Positions 1-10,376 of a stretch of 64,000 nt of DNA are shown in pieces. A program made the translations under genes and the position numbers. Origin of the DNA: Anaeropeptidivorans aminofermentans (GTDB lineage: Bacteria; Bacillota; Clostridia; Lachnospirales; UBA5962); assembly GCF_940670685.1 (NCBI RefSeq), contig NZ_OW711693.1, positions 1,550,001 to 1,614,000 on the forward strand, read 5' to 3'. Every line of letters starts with the position of its first letter. Positions within the stretch are counted from its first letter, which is position 1. A model generated the notes under the pieces. It searched no databases, had not been told where the DNA came from, and saw only the letters and a program-made list of their open reading frames with translations.

Positions 1-342
1 ACTCTTGGCGGTGCCAAAGCCCTTAAGCGAGACGACCTTGGACGCTTATGTGAAGGAGCGAAAGCCGATATTATTATCATTGATTTATCAGGCTATCATA
101 TAGGCGCTGTTGATGACCCCATACGTACTATGGGCATGTGCGCTGCAGGAAGGGACGTTGTAACAAGCATAATTAACGGCAGAGTCGTTATGAAAAACAG
201 AGTGATTCCCGGGTTCGATTATGAAACTGCACAGGTGAAAGCGCAGCAATATTATGATAAAATGAAAAAGGATTATTTAATGCGAAGCGGCAATAAAATT
301 AAGCCGGATGAAATGTTTCCGCCTACATTTAAAACCTGTTAA
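1..342 (+). CDS. TRZ/ATZ-type amidohydrolase, C-terminal part (cut by window edge)
   Basis: The open frame enters from the left edge and stops at 340-342, giving about 113 residues. It carries the C-terminal signature of the TRZ/ATZ amidohydrolase group (guanine deaminase and chlorohydrolase relatives): a GGAKAL.RDDLGRL segment, then GAKADIIIIDL and DPIRTMG, where the beta-sandwich domain closes. The metal-binding part lies outside the window. These enzymes are cytosolic metal-dependent hydrolases that deaminate or dechlorinate N-heterocycles. The next genes are a PucR regulator and an allantoin-pathway enzyme, so a purine-type substrate is inferred; the substrate itself cannot be read from this piece. 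Confidence 0.8.
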   Translation, partial: TLGGAKALKRDDLGRLCEGAKADIIIIDLSGYHIGAVDDPIRTMGMCAAGRDVVTSIINGRVVMKNRVIPGFDYETAQVKAQQYYDKMKKDYLMRSGNKIKPDEMFPPTFKTC

Positions 343-412
343 ATGCAGGTCTTGAATATTTTCCATAAAATAATGGGGCGGCGGTTTGGCAGATAAAAAC
401 AAGAGGTGTGCT

Positions 413-2068
413 ATGGAAATAACTATTAGGGATATCATGAAAATGCGATGTATGAAAGATGCAAAGCTAATTTCAGGTGCCAAAGGCTTTAACCGGATAG
501 TAAGCGGGGTTACTATTATAGAAGCTCCGGATATTCTGGATTTTGTTAAGGGCGGCGAGTTACTTTTGACGAGCTTTTATTCTTTTACGGAAATGAGCGA
601 TGAAAAACTTGAAAAACTGATAGAAGGTCTTTCAAAGAAATCTGCAGGATTGATTATAAAACTAAACCGTATATCGGAAGTTCCCAGTGTTATTATGGAT
701 GCAGCTGACAAACATGATTTTCCTGTTATACAGGTGCCGAAATCCGTTGCCCATGTGGATATAATGTATCCGATACTTCTTGAAATATTCGATAATCAGG
801 CGTATAAGCTGAATTTCTATAAAGAAGTACATAAGAAGTTGAACGCATTGGCCCTTACGGAACCGTCCATGGATACTATCATAAAAAATCTTGGCGATAT
901 TTTAAAGCATCCGGTTACACTATATGATAAGTACATGCGTAAAACCGTCGTTTCCCATCAGGACTATGGTGACTTTATTGTAATTGAGCCTCTTGAGAAA
1001 AATCATGAAAAGGCCGCTTTTCGATACTTTCGCCAGTATGTAAGTTATTATGATGGCGGCAAAGCTGAAAATCAAACCCTTGTACCAATTGAAAGCGTTA
1101 ACAACCTTATGGTATATCTTGGCATAGCGGAAGGCGATGAAGGCCTTACAGAGCTTGATTTTATTTCAATTGAAAATGCAATTACAATAATAAGCCTTGA
1201 GCTTATCCGCCAGCACACCGTATTGGAAGTAGAAAGAAAGTTCAAGATTGATTTGATTTCGGAACTTTTAAACGGAACAAATTTACCGAGGGAAGCTATT
1301 TATGAAAGGGCAAACCTTATAGGCTGGAAAATCTTGAAGCATTATGCCGTAGTAAAAATTGAAGCCGTTATGGATCCGTCAAAAAAAAGCTTTTACAGTA
1401 ATGATGAATATATGGCCGATATTGAAAATCTTCAGCCGACTGTGCTTGAAAATTTAAGTAATATGCTGCCAAAAAGCATTACTAAGTCTGATAATAATAT
1501 ATTTACCATATTGTGGCCCATTGAGGATTGTGCCGGAGAGAACTACCTGCCTCAGATAAAAGACACTCTTGAAAAGCTGGAGCAGAATATACGCATAAAG
1601 ACGCAATGTTCATACATAAACGCTGGGATAGGTAAAATTACTAATGATGTTAAGGAACTTGCCAAAAGTCAGTTTGAAGCAGAGGATGCGCTGAAATTCG
1701 GAAAAATTGCATTTGGGGAAAATAAATACGTAAGCTTTACGGAGCTTGGGGCCTACAGATTTTTATGCAGTTTTCCAGACCTTGACAGGCTCGGTGATTT
1801 TATGTCGGATAAGCTTAAGATATTGCTGGAATATGAGAAAAGTCATAACGGCCAACTGCTGGAAACACTGGAAATGTTTTTAAGGTGCAATCTAAATGCA
1901 AGCCGTACTGCGAAGGAAATGTATATCCATCACAAGTCCGTAGTGTACAGGCTGGAGAGAATAAAAACAATAGCAGGAATTGATTTTAACAGCAGCGAGG
2001 ATGTATTGGACATTCAGCTTAGCTTAAGGATACATCATTTTTTGAATGTGAGAATGAAAAGCCTTTAA
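413..2068 (+). CDS. PucR-family transcriptional regulator
   Basis: A 551-residue cytosolic activator. Residues 1-125 form the PucR N-terminal domain (starts ITIRDIMKMR), the middle resembles a GGDEF-like/CdaR region, and the C-terminus has the PucR helix-turn-helix with LRCNLNASRTAKEMYIHHKS followed by VYRLERI. I place the start at the ATG at 413 because AGAGGTG sits just upstream; an in-frame TTG at 386 has no ribosome site. PucR proteins regulate purine and allantoin catabolism in Bacillus, and here the gene lies between an amidohydrolase and allE, so it probably controls this locus. The downstream target genes are partly decayed, so its present regulon may be reduced. Confidence 0.88.
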   Translation: MEITIRDIMKMRCMKDAKLISGAKGFNRIVSGVTIIEAPDILDFVKGGELLLTSFYSFTEMSDEKLEKLIEGLSKKSAGLIIKLNRISEVPSVIMDAADKHDFPVIQVPKSVAHVDIMYPILLEIFDNQAYKLNFYKEVHKKLNALALTEPSMDTIIKNLGDILKHPVTLYDKYMRKTVVSHQDYGDFIVIEPLEKNHEKAAFRYFRQYVSYYDGGKAENQTLVPIESVNNLMVYLGIAEGDEGLTELDFISIENAITIISLELIRQHTVLEVERKFKIDLISELLNGTNLPREAIYERANLIGWKILKHYAVVKIEAVMDPSKKSFYSNDEYMADIENLQPTVLENLSNMLPKSITKSDNNIFTILWPIEDCAGENYLPQIKDTLEKLEQNIRIKTQCSYINAGIGKITNDVKELAKSQFEAEDALKFGKIAFGENKYVSFTELGAYRFLCSFPDLDRLGDFMSDKLKILLEYEKSHNGQLLETLEMFLRCNLNASRTAKEMYIHHKSVVYRLERIKTIAGIDFNSSEDVLDIQLSLRIHHFLNVRMKSL

Positions 2069-2140
2069 AGTATACATCTGTTTTAAATAAAACAAGGTTC
2101 GAGACTAAAAAATGTATAAAGACCTGAATTTACCTATCCA

Positions 2141-2260
2141 TGCTCAAATGATGTTAGAGTTATAATTTTTGTGCCGGGTATAAGGGGCATCAGCTACAGT
2201 CCCATACAGTCTCCAGAAAAATATAAGAAGATGTATATATATAAGATACTGAGGTTTTGA
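2141..2260 (+). pseudogene. Allantoate amidohydrolase-like M20 C-terminal remnant
   Basis: One frame here reads VIIFVPGIRGISYSP and then stops. It matches the C-terminal signature of M20 N-carbamoyl amino acid/allantoate amidohydrolases (family pattern: MIFVPS.NGISHSP.E). There is no start codon, no upstream domain and only about 39 codons, so it is a fragment. Its place directly upstream of allE, which acts on the product of allantoate amidohydrolase, supports the identity by context. It may instead come from another M20 hydrolase. Confidence 0.6.
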
Positions 2261-2403
2261 AGGCGGCTATTTATAAGCTGCGATTAATTAATTACAGGCT
2301 AGGCTGGGTGAAAACATGAATTCAGCAGAAATCACCACTGATAAAGTATCTTGGTAGATTCGGTTCTGGCGCTGTTTATTACCGGATTTATATGGGATTA
2401 AAC

Positions 2404-2635
2404 TAGGGTATTTCTGAAAGCCCCAAATTCTGGTCTGTTTTGTCATAAAAATGTGACTTTATCATCGAAAATCCTCAAAATGCGCTGTGCAGTTTTGACG
2501 TAAAATATCAAAATCTTACCCTCAACGTTTTTGCATAAAGAAAAATGCAAAGGCATGCTATTTCTCTGGTTTTCTCATAAAATTCACATTTTCTTGTAAA
2601 GTATTCATCGGTTTTCCAGGTTTTAGAAACTGCTT
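2404..2635. repeat. Degenerate family C repeat (copy C1)
   Basis: The left end reads AGGGTATTTCTGAAAG and the right end ends in TTTTAGAAACTGC, an imperfect inverted match. The interior shares GTCTGTTTTG.CATAAAAA, TCATCGAAAATCCTCAAAAT and a GCGCTG stretch with copies near 13.2 kb, 44.1 kb and 45.8 kb. Confidence 0.55.
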
Positions 2636-2742
2636 AATTCAAAAGTAATATTCTTTTAATTATAGGCGCTGTAATATTTTTTTGCGTGAATATCAAAATG
2701 AAAAGAATAAAGAAAAATAAAAAATGAAAGAGGTGTATATAA

Positions 2743-3528
2743 ATGGGGTATAGAAACAATGAGCTGGGCTATCCCAAAGATATACTTTCAACAAGAGCTG
2801 TCATTAAGAAAGGGAATTTTGCTCTTATACCGCCAAATGGTCTTGTGAAAAATGTTATTCCCGGATTTGAAGGCTGTGATATTACAATACTTTCATCCCC
2901 TAAATTAGGAGCGTCTTTTGTTGACTATCTAATTACTATGGGAAAAGACGGCAGAACCAGTAAAGGCTTTGGCGGCGGCGGCATTGAAACATTTGCCTAT
3001 GTTATTCATGGGAAAGTGTCCGCCACGGCAGGAGGTACGGAATATATCATGTCAAAAGGCGGATATATTTATTGCCCATCAACAGAAGAGCTGAATCTTA
3101 AAAATATGAATGGTCAGGAAAGTGAAATTTTTCTTTATAAGAGACGCTATATCCCTGCGGAAGGTTATACGCCGGAAATTGTATGCAAAAATATCGACGA
3201 AATAGCGCCGGTTAATTACGAGGACATGGATGATGTACTGTTTTATAACCTTTTGCCCAAGGATTTGGCATATGATATGAATTTCCATATTCTTTCATTT
3301 AAGCCGGGAGCCTCTCATGGCTATATTGAAACTCATGTTCAGGAACATGGTGCATATATACTTACGGGAGAAGGCATGTATAATCTTGATAATAACTGGA
3401 TGCCGGTTAAAAAAGGGGATTATATTTTTATGGGCGCCTATTCTTTGCAGGCCGCATACGCAATCGGGCGGGAAGAAAGCTTCTCATATATTTATTCAAA
3501 AGACTGCAACAGAGATGAGCTGATTTAA
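2743..3528 (+). CDS. allE: (S)-ureidoglycine aminohydrolase
   Basis: A 261-residue bicupin that converts (S)-ureidoglycine to (S)-ureidoglycolate plus ammonia after allantoate hydrolysis. The C-terminal cupin has E196, H198 and H202 in ETHVQEHGAY, and Q236 in SLQAAYAIG. This has exactly the spacing of the Mn-binding E235/H237/H241/Q275 set of the E. coli enzyme (YlbA). The length matches the family, and AGAGGTG precedes the ATG. It lies downstream of a decayed allantoate amidohydrolase-like fragment and upstream of a decayed ylbE-like gene, so the enzyme looks intact while its pathway neighbours do not. It is cytosolic and probably under the PucR regulator. Confidence 0.93.
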   Translation: MGYRNNELGYPKDILSTRAVIKKGNFALIPPNGLVKNVIPGFEGCDITILSSPKLGASFVDYLITMGKDGRTSKGFGGGGIETFAYVIHGKVSATAGGTEYIMSKGGYIYCPSTEELNLKNMNGQESEIFLYKRRYIPAEGYTPEIVCKNIDEIAPVNYEDMDDVLFYNLLPKDLAYDMNFHILSFKPGASHGYIETHVQEHGAYILTGEGMYNLDNNWMPVKKGDYIFMGAYSLQAAYAIGREESFSYIYSKDCNRDELI

Positions 3529-4185: not shown

Positions 4186-4222
4186 CAAAGCAGCTTTAAA
4201 TTCTAAATGCAAAGATGCAAAC

Positions 4223-4261
4223 AAAAGATGAGCTGCACCAGTTTGGTGCAGCTCATCTTTT
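4223..4261 (+). terminator. Rho-independent terminator
   Basis: An 18-base perfect stem (AAAAGATGAGCTGCACCA and its complement) with a three-base loop ends in TTTT. It closes the allantoin-locus transcript. Confidence 0.85.
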
Positions 4262-4264
4262 GCT

Positions 4265-4368
4265 GTAATAATATTGAAAAGAGATTTTCAGATATATTGA
4301 TCCCTTAATCTTTCCCCAAGCCCTCAATTAGGAGTAATAATATTGAAAAGAGATTTTCAGATATATTG
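4265..4368. repeat. 35-base direct repeat, two copies
   Basis: The 35 bases from 4265 (beginning GTAATAATATTGAAAAGAGA) recur identically at 4334-4368, spaced 34 bases apart. The repeat lies between the terminator and the signalling operon, in its likely promoter region. Each unit contains GAAAAGAGATTTTC, a partial palindrome. Confidence 0.8.
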
Positions 4369-4562: not shown

Positions 4563-4961
4563 ATGAAAAGAATTATGATTGTTGACGATTCTCTTATTAT
4601 GCGAATAAACTTGAAAAAAATTTTTGAGAAACAAGGTCATCAGGTTGTCGCAGAAGCGTCTAACGGTCAGGAGGCTGTTGAGAAATATATGAGCGCTCAC
4701 CCGGATTTGGTAACCATGGATATCACCATGCCGCAACTTGACGGAATATCTGCTTTGCAAAAAATCCATACGCTGGATAAAAATGCATGTGTTGTTATGA
4801 TTTCCGCCCTAGGTCAGGAAATAAAAATTATTGAAGCAATAAACAAAGGCGCCAAGCATTATATCATTAAGCCCTTTAAGGAAGATACTGTCGTGAATAT
4901 CATCAACACTGTTCTTGATGCCGAAGCGGGGGAGCGCGAAAATGCCTATGATGCAGGATAG
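4563..4961 (+). CDS. CheY-like response regulator (receiver only)
   Basis: A 132-residue single-domain receiver. The acidic pocket is D8-D9 in MIVDDS, the phospho-acceptor is D53 in TMDITMP, with S81 and K103 (KPF) as the switch residues; all are intact. I start at the ATG at 4563 because GGAGG lies just upstream. There is no output domain, so it must act by protein contact, as CheY does at the motor switch. Its last 20 bases overlap the CheA-like kinase gene, which is the likely phosphodonor, and a CheX phosphatase follows, completing a phosphorelay cassette. No flagellar genes are visible, so the target is unknown. Confidence 0.9.
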   Translation: MKRIMIVDDSLIMRINLKKIFEKQGHQVVAEASNGQEAVEKYMSAHPDLVTMDITMPQLDGISALQKIHTLDKNACVVMISALGQEIKIIEAINKGAKHYIIKPFKEDTVVNIINTVLDAEAGERENAYDAG

Positions 4962-6921
4962 TAACTTTAACGTGTTTGACAGCGAAAGCGGCCTGGAGCA
5001 GTTTGTCATACAAACACCGACTGTGGAATCTTCCGCTTATGGAGAAACTGTTAAAGCATTGTTTGAAGATAACAGCGACGCCGAAGGCGTTGTGATTACA
5101 GAGAACGGTTCTCCGGTGGGGCTTGTGATGCGGGCAGACTTTTTTCAGAAAATGGGAACATACTATGGGAATTCCCTTTATATGAAACGCCCCGCCAGCC
5201 TTTTGATGGATACGGATATTATGAAAGCCGATGTAAATGACAGTATATCCAGAGTCAGCATTCAAGCTATGCACCGGGAGCAGAGCAAATTATATGATTA
5301 CATAATTGTTTACAAAAATAATGCCTATATAGGGGTTGTCAGTATCCAGCTGTTTCTGATTGAGCTTTCTAAACGGAACGAAGCACAGATTAGCGTTTTA
5401 AAAAATCAGCAGCAAAAACTGATGACTGCCCATGAGCAGGAAAAGTTAATACGGCAAAACCTTGAATATCAGTCAGCTGCCGTAAGAAACTTGCTTGATC
5501 ATGCGGATCAGGGCTTTTTATGGTTCGGCAGGGATTTAATTATAAAAAATGAATTTAGTTATAAATGTGTAAGCATCTTTGGCCAGAGTATCGGTATGCT
5601 TGCATATATAAATTTAGTAACACCTTATTTCGGTGACGATGCGAGGAGTATCTTTCAAATAGCCTTCGAGAGCTATTTTAAGAATAATTCTCCCGTAACG
5701 GATAATGTATATTTAATGCTTTTGCCGGCTGATTGTATCATCAACGGTAAAAATATCCGCTTTGAATATCGCCGAATAGAAAGCGACGGGCAAAAAGCCG
5801 TTATGGTTATATTAAATGATATTACGGAAAAAATTAATCTGGAAAGAGCCATGGCTAACGATCAAAATAAACAGCGGCTTTTAATAAAAGCCTTTAGCCG
5901 TCAAGGTCAGATAAAACAGATGCTGGATGAATTCCGTGAGATTTTTTCCGGCGGATACCGCAGTTATTTCAATGATACTGATTGTTTTTCAGACAATCTG
6001 AATGAACTGTTCCGTGCTGTTCATACATTCAAAGGGGACTTTGCGCAATACGGGTTTATCTCTGCATCGGATAAGCTGCATGAATTTGAAGACGCCTTGC
6101 TGCAGCTCATCAATAAAGGAAAGGATATCACCATATCCCATGTAGAGCATGTTATGGCAGACTGCGACCCGGAAAAAATATTAAAAGACGATTTGAATAT
6201 TATTTATGAGGTTATGGGAAGCTCTTATTTTGATGGAAGCGAAATTATTTCTTTCCCAAAAGCTAAGCTTACGGAAATAGAAGACAGGGTTCGCTCAGCT
6301 GAAGGTTCTCTTACCCCAACGGCTGTAATCGGGCTCATCGAAGAACTAAAGTGGAAGAATATTAAGATCTTTTTGGAGCAATACCGGGACTATTTGCAGT
6401 ATCTGGCAAATCGTGTTATGAAGAATATGCCCTTTTATCTGGTTGAGGGAGACGACATTGCCATCAATGAAGAACAGTATAATGACTTCTTAAAAACACT
6501 CGTTCATATTTTCCGCAATGCTATGGACCACGGAATTGAAACGGACGAGGAGCGCCTTTCCTGCGGCAAGGACGAGAGAGGGCTTGTGGAATGCCGCATT
6601 TCTCGATTAGATGCTCAATGGTTCACCCTTACCATATCGGATGACGGACGGGGTCTCGATTTAAACAAAATAAAAGAAAAAGCATTGCAAAACGGCCTAT
6701 ATACCAGTGAAGCGTTGGAAAAGATGTCCAAAAACGAAATTTGCAATCTGATTTTTGCCGACCATTTTTCCACAAAGGCCTGTACAGATTCCCTTTCCGG
6801 CAGGGGGTTGGGAATGGCGGCAATCCAAAAAGCATGCATAAGCCTTGGAGGTACACTGGAAGTTTTAACGGAAGAAAACAAGGGTACGTCTTTCCTGTTC
6901 AGACTGCCTTATATCGCTTAA
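4942..6921 (+). CDS. CheA-like histidine kinase with N-terminal CBS domains
   Basis: A 659-residue cytosolic protein with no membrane span. Residues about 15-150 look like a CBS pair (EGVVITENGSPVGLVMRADFF, then YDYIIVYKNNAYIGVVS), followed by a coiled coil (150-185) and a PAS-like stretch (190-300). An Hpt-type helical domain has H361 in AVHTFKGDF, the HxxKG phosphosite of CheA P1. A HATPase domain has N526 in NAMDHG and GRGL boxes. Unlike CheA there is no CheW-like tail, no obvious P3 dimerisation domain and no receptor nearby, so the CBS or PAS part is probably the sensor (inference). The start at 4942 follows GGGGGAG; an in-frame ATG at 4915 lacks a site. Translation is coupled to the receiver gene. 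Confidence 0.85.
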   Translation: MPMMQDSNFNVFDSESGLEQFVIQTPTVESSAYGETVKALFEDNSDAEGVVITENGSPVGLVMRADFFQKMGTYYGNSLYMKRPASLLMDTDIMKADVNDSISRVSIQAMHREQSKLYDYIIVYKNNAYIGVVSIQLFLIELSKRNEAQISVLKNQQQKLMTAHEQEKLIRQNLEYQSAAVRNLLDHADQGFLWFGRDLIIKNEFSYKCVSIFGQSIGMLAYINLVTPYFGDDARSIFQIAFESYFKNNSPVTDNVYLMLLPADCIINGKNIRFEYRRIESDGQKAVMVILNDITEKINLERAMANDQNKQRLLIKAFSRQGQIKQMLDEFREIFSGGYRSYFNDTDCFSDNLNELFRAVHTFKGDFAQYGFISASDKLHEFEDALLQLINKGKDITISHVEHVMADCDPEKILKDDLNIIYEVMGSSYFDGSEIISFPKAKLTEIEDRVRSAEGSLTPTAVIGLIEELKWKNIKIFLEQYRDYLQYLANRVMKNMPFYLVEGDDIAINEEQYNDFLKTLVHIFRNAMDHGIETDEERLSCGKDERGLVECRISRLDAQWFTLTISDDGRGLDLNKIKEKALQNGLYTSEALEKMSKNEICNLIFADHFSTKACTDSLSGRGLGMAAIQKACISLGGTLEVLTEENKGTSFLFRLPYIA

Positions 6922-6936
6922 GAAGGAGACACTAAA

Positions 6937-7401
6937 ATGGAAAACAAATACGCTGATATTTTTATCAATGCCTGGCATACGGTATTGGAATCTTTTTCTA
7001 CAAAACAAATTACACTTGCGGAGATTCATTCTTCTAAAAACCCTGTTGATAATCGTGATATTTTGGTATTTATGGGAATTATCGGCGCTGTAAGCGGACA
7101 AGTGGCCATATCGATGGACGTCAATACAGGCAAAATACTTGCATCGGAAATGCTCGGCGGCATGGAGGTTACGGATGCGGATGAACTGGTTACAAGTGCC
7201 GTCGGCGAAATATGCAATATGATTATGGGTAACGCCTGCTTGCACATCAGCTCAGCAGAAACCGGTGTGGATATTACACCGCCTACCGTAATTTGCAATG
7301 AAACAGCTCCCCAGATACTCATTAGTCCCTCTTATAAAATTTCTTTACACCTTGAGGATTTGGACGAGATCGATTTTAATGTTGAAATTGCGACGGCTTG
7401 A
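6937..7401 (+). CDS. CheX-type phosphatase of CheY-P
   Basis: A 154-residue protein of the CheX/CheC family, full family length. The catalytic ExxN motif is present in VGEICNMIMGNA; in CheX this Glu/Asn pair dephosphorylates CheY-P. AGAAGGAGA sits seven bases before the ATG and only 15 bases separate it from the kinase gene, so all three genes form one operon. It would reset the receiver encoded first in the operon. It is cytosolic and probably acts as a dimer, as known CheX proteins do. Confidence 0.88.
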   Translation: MENKYADIFINAWHTVLESFSTKQITLAEIHSSKNPVDNRDILVFMGIIGAVSGQVAISMDVNTGKILASEMLGGMEVTDADELVTSAVGEICNMIMGNACLHISSAETGVDITPPTVICNETAPQILISPSYKISLHLEDLDEIDFNVEIATA

Positions 7402-7404
7402 TTC

Positions 7405-7451
7405 AAAGCCATCGCCTTTTTTAGGCAATCTTTTGCCAGACGATGGCTTTT
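7405..7451 (+). terminator. Terminator of the signalling operon
   Basis: The stem AAAGCCATCG pairs with CGATGGCTTT, followed by TT. It begins three bases after the CheX stop codon. Confidence 0.75.
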
Positions 7452-8045: not shown

Positions 8046-10376
8046 TTATTTGAAAATATTGCTGTAATCCGTATTTATTTTTATTATTTTTTCTGTTAAA
8101 AGCCTAATATCCGCTTCTTCTTTACTATAGCTTTCCATTAAATAGCCTTTTTGGTTTTCTAAAGCTTTCTTCATTGCAGTAATTTCTGCTGAAAAATCAG
8201 TGTCGCCTTTTGCTGTTTTTTCATTTAAGCTTTTAATAACATCATATAAATCCTCATTTGGTTTTTCCACAAGACCTTCTCCAAAAGTGCCTTTTGCATT
8301 TTGCCTATATTGGTTGGTAAAGTAGTCGTAGGCTTCTTTTGACCAATCGTAAGCATACCAATTATAATCTATATTGTAGAAATGTTCGTCTAAAGCCGTT
8401 TGAGCATCTCCTGATTTTAATAAATCTATGATTTGCTCAATTTCAGTAATATTGTCTTGGGCATTTACATGGGGGGCAATTTTATTTTCTGCCCAGCCCA
8501 GCTTCACGAAGCTTTGCTGCATAAATTTAAAAATTTTATATAAATCTTTGTTTAAAGATACGATTTCTAACTTTAATTGTGCGGCTTCTTCGTTTTTAGC
8601 ATTTGCTGTAAGTGAAACATATTCTTCATTTAAGCGATTGATATTTTTTGTTAAAGAAGAAATTGCTTCTTCTGCCTTTGCAAATTCAGCATAGAGAGAT
8701 TCGGGCGTATAGCTTTCATCAAATGTAGATTTAATATATTCCATATGACTATTGAAATTAAGCGGTTTTAAAGGCAATTGATCAAATGACATTGCCATAT
8801 TCAGGAAGAATGCGGAGGAATACTTTGAATATTCTTCATTAAAGCCTAATTTTTTATTATCGGCAGAGCTGTGGTATGCGCCGTCTCTGTAAACAGAATT
8901 GCTTTTGTCATGGAAGGAAACAGCCGCTATTACTGGTACACCGTTTTGTGAATATATAAAATCCTCTGTGCCGGTTGTAGGCGGGGTAGAGTTATATATT
9001 TCTATTTTGCCGTTTGTAGCAGGTACGGTTGTGATGTATTTATCGGCAAAGTCCTTTAATTCATAATTTGATCTTATGGCTAAAACATTTTCATCTATCA
9101 ATGGGTAGCAGCCGTCTATGTTAATCATAGCAAAGGCATTTTCGGCCCATTCAGGATGGATATTCATAATTTGGTTATATGCGCCGATGCTCCAGTCATA
9201 AGCTGAATCGGTTTTGCCCCATTCTTCAGCACCGTGGGTTACGAAACGTATGGTCTTTTCAGGCATATAGCCGCTTTCATTAATGGCTTTTGCAATAGTA
9301 AGTATAGATGCTACACCGGAAGCGTCATCAAAAGCAGAGTGGTAGTAACCGTCATAATGAGCGATAAAATAAATGACTTCATCGGTTTTGCCGGGAATTT
9401 CACCCCATACATTTTGTGAAATGGCTGAGCCCTTTGTAATGGTGCTTTTTGCGTTGAAAGTTACTTCTATTTCCTTATTTTCGGATTTTTCTATTAAGTC
9501 TTTTAATTTATTGGCATTGTTTTTGCTGATTGCCATAGCTTTTGCATATTCCGGCCCGCAGATATCCTGTGACCCTATAGTATCGTCATCATATTGGGCA
9601 TAGCTTGCAATATTTACAGCAATTACACCGTAGGCGCCCTTTAAATAAGCTTCATAGGCAGGCCAGTTGATCCACCATTCATTATGTTGGTCGATATCAA
9701 CTAGAACTAATTTGCCTTTAACATCTAATTTAGCTAAATCGGCTTGGGTGCCTTTATTTGCATATACGAGCTTAAGCTTTTCATCATTGGCATTAATTTC
9801 TGTAGCGTATCCGCCTAAGTGAATTATTTCTTCGCCGTTTTCACCGGCGATTTTTATATTTGCGCCGTTAAAAGTCCAGCCGTCAGCTTTAAATTCATCT
9901 ATAGTAATGTTTTTAAGTCCGACTTCTTCCATTTTTGAATATATGTAATTTGCCGTTTCTTTTTCGGCCTTTGAACCGGAGCTTCTGTTGCCTGTTGCAG
10001 GGTCGTCGCCGAAATCACTTATGGTAAACATAACATCTTTCGTAAATGCAGTATCAATTAAATCACCTGTTTTGATTTTACCGGTTTCTATGTTCTTAAC
10101 TGTATCCTTAATCTCCTCGGTATTCTCGGTTTTTTCGATTTCAGCGGCGATAGAGGTTTCGGTAATCTCTTTATCTGGAAGAATTAAGGTTTGTCCTGTA
10201 TAGATTAAACGAGGGTTTTTGATATTATTTGTTTTAACAACCTCATCAATATTAAAATTATATTGTTTGGAAAGTCTCCACAAATTATCTCCCTTCTTTA
10301 CAGTATACTCCATACCTTGAACAGGTACGCTTATTGCAAAGGACAATATTAAAGCTAAAAACATTTTTCTTTTCAT
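8046..10376 (-). CDS. Secreted LysM-containing M28 family aminopeptidase
   Basis: A 776-residue secreted protein. An N-terminal signal peptide (residues 1-21, MKRKMFLALILSFAISVPVQ) is followed by one LysM domain (about 23-68: YTVKKGDNLWRLSKQYN...GQTLILP), which binds peptidoglycan. A PA-like insert precedes a zinc M28 peptidase core: HYDGYYHSAFDDASG (His and Asp ligands), THGAEEWG (Glu base/ligand), MINIDG, and a late AYHSSADN (His ligand). The C-terminal 250 residues are helical with coiled-coil character. It likely trims peptides at the cell wall. GGGAGTGG precedes the ATG. It stands alone, with a terminator on its 3' side. Confidence 0.88.
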   Translation of the reverse strand: MKRKMFLALILSFAISVPVQGMEYTVKKGDNLWRLSKQYNFNIDEVVKTNNIKNPRLIYTGQTLILPDKEITETSIAAEIEKTENTEEIKDTVKNIETGKIKTGDLIDTAFTKDVMFTISDFGDDPATGNRSSGSKAEKETANYIYSKMEEVGLKNITIDEFKADGWTFNGANIKIAGENGEEIIHLGGYATEINANDEKLKLVYANKGTQADLAKLDVKGKLVLVDIDQHNEWWINWPAYEAYLKGAYGVIAVNIASYAQYDDDTIGSQDICGPEYAKAMAISKNNANKLKDLIEKSENKEIEVTFNAKSTITKGSAISQNVWGEIPGKTDEVIYFIAHYDGYYHSAFDDASGVASILTIAKAINESGYMPEKTIRFVTHGAEEWGKTDSAYDWSIGAYNQIMNIHPEWAENAFAMINIDGCYPLIDENVLAIRSNYELKDFADKYITTVPATNGKIEIYNSTPPTTGTEDFIYSQNGVPVIAAVSFHDKSNSVYRDGAYHSSADNKKLGFNEEYSKYSSAFFLNMAMSFDQLPLKPLNFNSHMEYIKSTFDESYTPESLYAEFAKAEEAISSLTKNINRLNEEYVSLTANAKNEEAAQLKLEIVSLNKDLYKIFKFMQQSFVKLGWAENKIAPHVNAQDNITEIEQIIDLLKSGDAQTALDEHFYNIDYNWYAYDWSKEAYDYFTNQYRQNAKGTFGEGLVEKPNEDLYDVIKSLNEKTAKGDTDFSAEITAMKKALENQKGYLMESYSKEEADIRLLTEKIIKINTDYSNIFK

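Follow-up and report, generated by a model that had tools for sequence, protein, structure and literature searches.

In the window—by which we mean the whole 64,000-nt stretch of DNA that was analysed—one tight operon at positions 4563-7401 encodes a CheY, a kinase, and a CheX, as read from the ORF list, the sequence, and Pfam searches (Table 1). A sequence-only reading had placed these genes in overlapping or nearly overlapping positions, which the ORFs and sequence bear out: the kinase, starting at an ATG at 4942 (alternatives at 4948 and 4951), overlaps the end of the CheY gene by about 20 nt, and 15 nt separate its stop codon from the CheX ATG. This arrangement is not due to chance, since the cluster recurs in other genomes. 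The hairpin that closes the operon is absent from the output of a simple terminator scanner. Further upstream (window 1-3528 and locus L154) lie ureide/purine-degradation-like genes, including PucR and an (S)-ureidoglycine aminohydrolase (TIGR03214, E 3.3e-99); between these genes and the operon is a perfect 19-nt inverted repeat, a hairpin (4222-4262), and a 35-nt exact direct repeat (4265-4299 and 4334-4368, 69 nt apart) also lies upstream of the operon. A secreted-type protein with LysM and M28 peptidase domains is encoded on the minus strand at 8046-10376.

Table 1 Coordinates of the operon and its domains in the window, and of CheX proteins with an additional N-terminal part at four related loci
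Feature	Coordinates	Strand	Evidence
CheY, stand-alone receiver, 132 aa	4563..4961	+	PF00072 E 1e-28
Kinase CBS-PAS-Hpt-P3-like-P4, about 659 aa	4942..6921	+	Pfam, structure, PDB profile matches
CBS pair, residues 15-149 (numbered from 4945)	4987..5391	+	AcuB match, PDB profile matches
Long helix bridging CBS pair and PAS, residues 134-186	5344..5502	+	Model secondary structure
PAS domain, about residues 187-293	5503..5823	+	Model strands/helices, FixL match, kept in relatives
Hpt (P1-like) domain	5872..6240	+	PF01627 E 4.7e-5, slightly below Pfam cut-off; 1tqg match
P3-like dimerisation + P4 ATPase region, residues 420-656	6202..6912	+	4xiv match; HATPase_c 518-655
CheX phosphatase, 154 aa	6937..7401	+	PF13690 E 9.4e-16; 1squ match
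Likely intrinsic terminator, hairpin + T run, closing the operon	7390..7422	+	Sequence reading; fold z -3.19
CheX with repeat-rich N-terminal part, L181	7877-8773		
CheX with repeat-rich N-terminal part, L182	7543-8553		
CheX with repeat-rich N-terminal part, L183	6715-7629		
CheX with repeat-rich N-terminal part, L193	3560-4456		

For the kinase, the earlier reading had proposed a CBS pair, a PAS-like part, an Hpt domain, and a HATPase, all of which were recovered by profile searches and a predicted structure. Pfam finds HATPase_c at E 1.6e-15 and CBS at E 3.6e-4, the latter below its cut-off. A profile of the N-terminal half (A4, 7 sequences) matches CBS proteins of the PDB, the best single stretch being 2ef7 (E 2.5e-4, both repeats), and an AlphaFold2 model of residues 1-309 (seven sequences; mean pLDDT 79.9, pTM 0.45) shows a CBS pair, a 53-residue helix, and a PAS fold. 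The top Foldseek matches of this model are CBS pairs, AcuB first, with a FixL PAS dimer at rank 40, and VIA-align gives Z 14.9 against AcuB over 127 residues at 3.0 Å (range 15-149). Profile matches and the structural model thus confirm the tandem CBS fold and the PAS, and the outcome named beforehand as fatal to the assignment—HMM searches without a CBS fold—did not occur. One alignment (A3) was set aside for two misplaced CBS-only rows.

In the C-terminal half, the Hpt profile (A2) matches CheA P1 (1tqg, E 2.2e-6), and the putative phosphorylated histidine, H360 (codon 6022-6024, motif HTFKG), is invariant in alignments A1 and A2. Residues 420-656 match CheA P3-P4 (4xiv, E 6.3e-29 by phmmer); the P3 part is read from this alignment to CheA constructs, the Pfam H-kinase_dim model having given no reported match. 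The kinase thus holds both a CheA-type Hpt (P1) domain with its phospho-His and a HATPase_c (P4) domain. The CheW-like domain said to be missing is indeed not detected: Pfam finds no CheW family in the window kinase at E<=1, and no CheW domain in any of the 14 Pfam-scanned members, this one included, of the family defined below.

The CheY is a receiver alone with the Asp pocket of a single-domain response regulator, comprising an acidic pair (D8/D9), the phosphoacceptor D53, S81, and K103. The acidic pair and phosphoacceptor Asp are kept in all 21 aligned partner CheYs of the family, and the residues fixed in 13/13 flagellar CheYs are absent from the partners, the window CheY included. An unrooted tree of 34 rows splits the 21 partner CheYs from the 13 flagellar ones (99/98), groups together the partners of CBS kinases (89/82), and does not group the window CheY with the CheYs of fliM/fliY operons. 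Given this separate lineage and the missing residues, the window CheY is no duplicate of the flagellar one. The third gene had been called a CheX phosphatase, and this too held: beyond the Pfam match, its catalytic E-x-x-N is intact (GEICN), it matches Thermotoga maritima CheX (1squ) at E 5.5e-13, and the motif E/D-xx-N is present in 20 of 20 aligned proteins (19 E, 1 D), among them the genome's second CheX.

The host genome (3.76 Mb) encodes a separate CheA with a CheW domain, plus CheW, at sites away from the operon, as well as FliM and FliY in a flagellar operon that includes a CheY of its own; the further CheX adjoins a hemerythrin gene. With a separate CheA/CheW and flagellar CheY in the host, the operon is additional to another chemotaxis set. 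Single-sequence models detected neither chemoreceptor (MCP) nor CheW genes across the 64-kb window and the 12 kb preceding it, so the kinase does not have beside it the receptor and CheW genes of the classical pathway. This agrees with the prior claim that a receptor is lacking and supports its reading of the operon as a receptor-independent relay.

A search with the kinase across 392 genomes of its order recovered longer relatives in at least nine other genomes, the remaining matches listed being CheA or short Hpt-HATPase proteins. Some of these short proteins (about 340-370 aa; L047-L050, L052, L053) are encoded in a conserved gene neighbourhood found in a different taxonomic family of that order, with no CheY detected near their genes. 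Across the phylum, the PAS-Hpt profile A2 hit 18 of 398 genomes at E<=1e-12—12 with a full PAS-Hpt (the window's own genome included), one with a weaker full match, and five with PAS alone—and in a named collection the matches listed included Syntrophomonas palmitatica, an Arcobacter MAG, a Campylobacteraceae MAG, a proteobacterial MAG, and others. We defined the family as the 32 kinases whose PAS-Hpt core matched strongly, keeping out the weaker matches L190, L083, L096, and L111. The neighbourhood survey that the earlier reading had proposed, run here on PAS-Hpt-HATPase relatives, found both CheY and CheX beside 25 of the 32, CheY only beside three, and neither beside four, counts that are not independent given near-copy loci (L042-L045, L178-L180, L176/L177, L175/L191). 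An adjacency rule alone gave CheY in 25, CheX in 22, and both in 19; correction by hand, for CheYs two genes off (L036, L056, L057) and for CheX within proteins of ~300 aa (L181, L183, L193), raised these to 28, 25, and 25.

Half of the family (16/32) has CheX fused to the kinase C-terminus, confirmed by Pfam where scanned and sub-threshold in L054 and L063; standing beside a CheY, such fusions serve as Rosetta stones for the partnership. The N-terminal sensors vary, from a CBS pair to dCache-HAMP (L175), 7TM + PAS (L054), a receiver (L063), and an [FeFe]-hydrogenase-like domain with 4Fe-4S fused to PAS-Hpt-HATPase-CheX (L174 5156-8536, L176 3990-7367). In a core tree of 27 rows, L036 being partial, all six CBS kinases fall into a single clade (100/100), and this clade, together with the grouping and split of the CheYs, suggests that kinase and CheY have travelled together. 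At four CBS loci, CheX makes up the C-terminal end of a longer protein (about 300-336 aa; Table 1), that of L183 being weak in Pfam (E 0.0069); the repeat-rich N-terminal parts give weak DUF4388 matches in three of the four and resemble MshEN/GspE N-terminal repeats by eye.

The sequence-only reading had also named, as a finding that would speak against it, homologues always standing beside chemoreceptors. This is not so in three of the six CBS loci; in the other three (L181, L183, L193) an MCP-domain gene lies within 2.5 kb, directly adjacent in L181 and L193, and a receptor link in those species is therefore possible. Over the whole family, MCP neighbours occur at 4/32 loci vs 19/69 controls (p 0.13), the controls being other loci with a CheA-type ATPase among the matches listed in the named-collection scan.

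The usual ribose motif of CBS domains is G-h-x-T/S-x-x-D/N. In the CBS kinases this motif is degenerate: the T/S place of CBS1 holds M in 6/6, and the D/N end of CBS2 is kept in 1/6. The host's EAL-CBS-GGDEF protein (L003), the nearest CBS paralogue in the genome, with a CBS pair 33% identical to that of the kinase, keeps the motif T and D in CBS2. The adenosyl or nucleotide ligand proposed for the CBS pair is weakened by this degeneracy and finds no support here; the pair possibly binds a ligand other than a nucleotide, or no ligand.

The operon is real, intact, and recurrent, a minimal chemotaxis-like relay whose kinase, for want of a CheW domain, is not a CheA, and we consider it probable that it works as a self-contained phosphorelay in the cytosol, chemotactic by descent. 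The phosphotransfer steps that we infer would begin with homodimerisation of the kinase, whose P4 ATPase would phosphorylate H360 of its own Hpt domain at a rate that the CBS pair and PAS would set by way of the long helix joining them, these domains taking the role that receptors, CheW, and P5 occupy in CheA. The phosphoryl group would then pass to D53 of the co-encoded CheY, which would act in trans on a protein encoded outside the operon until CheX strips the phosphoryl group again, making for a fast reversible signal. Of the original interpretation, the domains, the missing CheW, the lack of a local receptor, and the receptor-independent relay stand, and the adenosyl ligand does not. Counting against a self-contained relay are the four family kinases without both partners nearby, the three without CheX, and the MCP genes adjoining the CBS-kinase loci L181 and L193.

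As to what the relay acts on, relatives' CheYs offer some indication. Nine have a C-terminal extension that we read as STAS-like, using a home-made profile from five of the nine; Pfam places STAS there below threshold in three of six scanned (E 0.024-0.095), the best PDB match of an eight-extension profile is SpoIIAA (E 0.038), a predicted model (mean pLDDT 75.1) shows the strand-helix order of STAS, and the PDB fold lists for it are filled by receivers. The partner in L174 is a CheY fused to GGDEF (E 3.8e-51), an arrangement seen once only. Because relatives' CheYs carry STAS-like or GGDEF parts and partner CheYs are separate from flagellar CheY, a non-flagellar output exerted in trans is probable, and a regulatory protein, perhaps one of c-di-GMP control, is a likelier target than the flagellar switch. 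A narrower form of the relay would have CheY-P activate or inhibit a partner encoded elsewhere, be it a diguanylate cyclase, a phosphodiesterase, or a STAS protein, and c-di-GMP is the likeliest single output, although we would put it well short of an even chance. Besides the L174 fusion, it draws on L040 and L041, where HD-GYP genes directly follow that of CheY, on PilZ, HD-GYP, and EAL-CBS-GGDEF around the L183 operon, on L003 as the nearest CBS paralogue, and on the kinase's PAS type, which also heads GGDEF-HD-GYP proteins at six loci (L184-L189) beside SiaB/SiaC/SiaA-like genes (by Pfam, SiaC, DUF6272, and SpoIIE phosphatase genes at L184; L186 was Pfam-checked in part). Resting on that one fusion and a few neighbourhoods, the idea has to reckon with sub-threshold STAS calls, with a window in which no c-di-GMP genes were detected, and with an enrichment of such genes that is not significant (5/32 family loci vs 4/69 controls among the matches listed, p 0.14).

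The kinase might instead feed a second CheY at the flagellar switch, an accessory chemotaxis branch through which an internal metabolic signal would bias swimming beside CheA. The species is flagellated, so a flagellar output is conceivable: the host has FliM, FliY, CheA, and CheW, FlhA is found in 13/14 and FliM in 19/20 family genomes, and MCP genes adjoin L181 and L193. FlhA is, however, common in the phylum sample (326/398), a background from which 12/12 would be expected with p about 0.09, and we dropped the flagellar association as evidence for this reason; moreover, one genome with three family kinases (G006, 80% complete) yielded neither FliM nor FlhA, and the window CheY belongs to the lineage without the flagellar residues. 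We therefore regard such a branch as unlikely. It is very improbable that these genes are what is left, decayed or idle, of a chemosensory operon whose CheA lost P5: the operon's closest operon relative is visibly degraded (L036 3953-6350, with the kinase in two reading frames and CheX shortened), but here every reading frame is intact and no catalytic residue is missing, and the architecture without P5 is shared by relatives in several phyla, their partners retained.

The self-contained relay belongs to a scattered, apparently undescribed group of such relays that lack the chemotaxis domain for coupling to receptors; our literature search, which covered open-access sources, found no description of the architecture. 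At rather less than even confidence, we suggest a widespread unnamed class of CheW-less, receptor-less relays, in which a sensor-PAS-Hpt-P3-P4 kinase acts with a dedicated CheY lineage and a CheX that is often kinase-fused, and interchangeable sensors (CBS pair, [FeFe]-hydrogenase-like) feed outputs other than the flagellum, for example a diguanylate cyclase or STAS. In anaerobes the group may couple the sensing of hydrogen, energy state, or metabolites to outputs in c-di-GMP or stress; the hydrogenase-like kinase of L174 with its CheY-GGDEF partner is a possible hydrogen-to-c-di-GMP relay. What appears to be the catalytic core of CheA, here with sensors built in and a CheY and CheX to itself, offers an array-free route to the study of CheA catalysis, and the modular set makes the relation between CheA-type and sensor-kinase-type control directly testable.

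CheA is usually described as a histidine kinase without its own sensor, dependent on receptors and CheW. Like CheA (P1-P5), the window kinase has Hpt and P4 domains and, by alignment, a P3-like region, its nearest structures are CheA P3-P4 and P1, and its partners are CheY and CheX; unlike CheA, it has no detected P2, no P5/CheW, and N-terminal CBS and PAS sensors of its own. A survey of CheA architectures reports CheW in 100% of 13,673 CheA sequences, so that the P5-less group falls outside that survey set, and describes CheC/CheX fusions with F1 CheAs of Leptospirae (PMC10542144). Those fusions resemble many relatives in carrying the CheY phosphatase on the kinase's own chain, but those F1 CheAs carry CheW, whereas the window kinase lacks it and its CheX is separate (PMC10542144). 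With the regulators AcuB, DarB, and EAL-CBS-GGDEF the kinase shares the CBS pair fold, yet its output is an Hpt kinase and its ribose motif is degenerate. The window CheX, finally, is of the same family as the Thermotoga and Borrelia CheX proteins and has their E-xx-N motif but, unlike them, is encoded with a CheY of a lineage separate from flagellar CheY, under a P5-less kinase.
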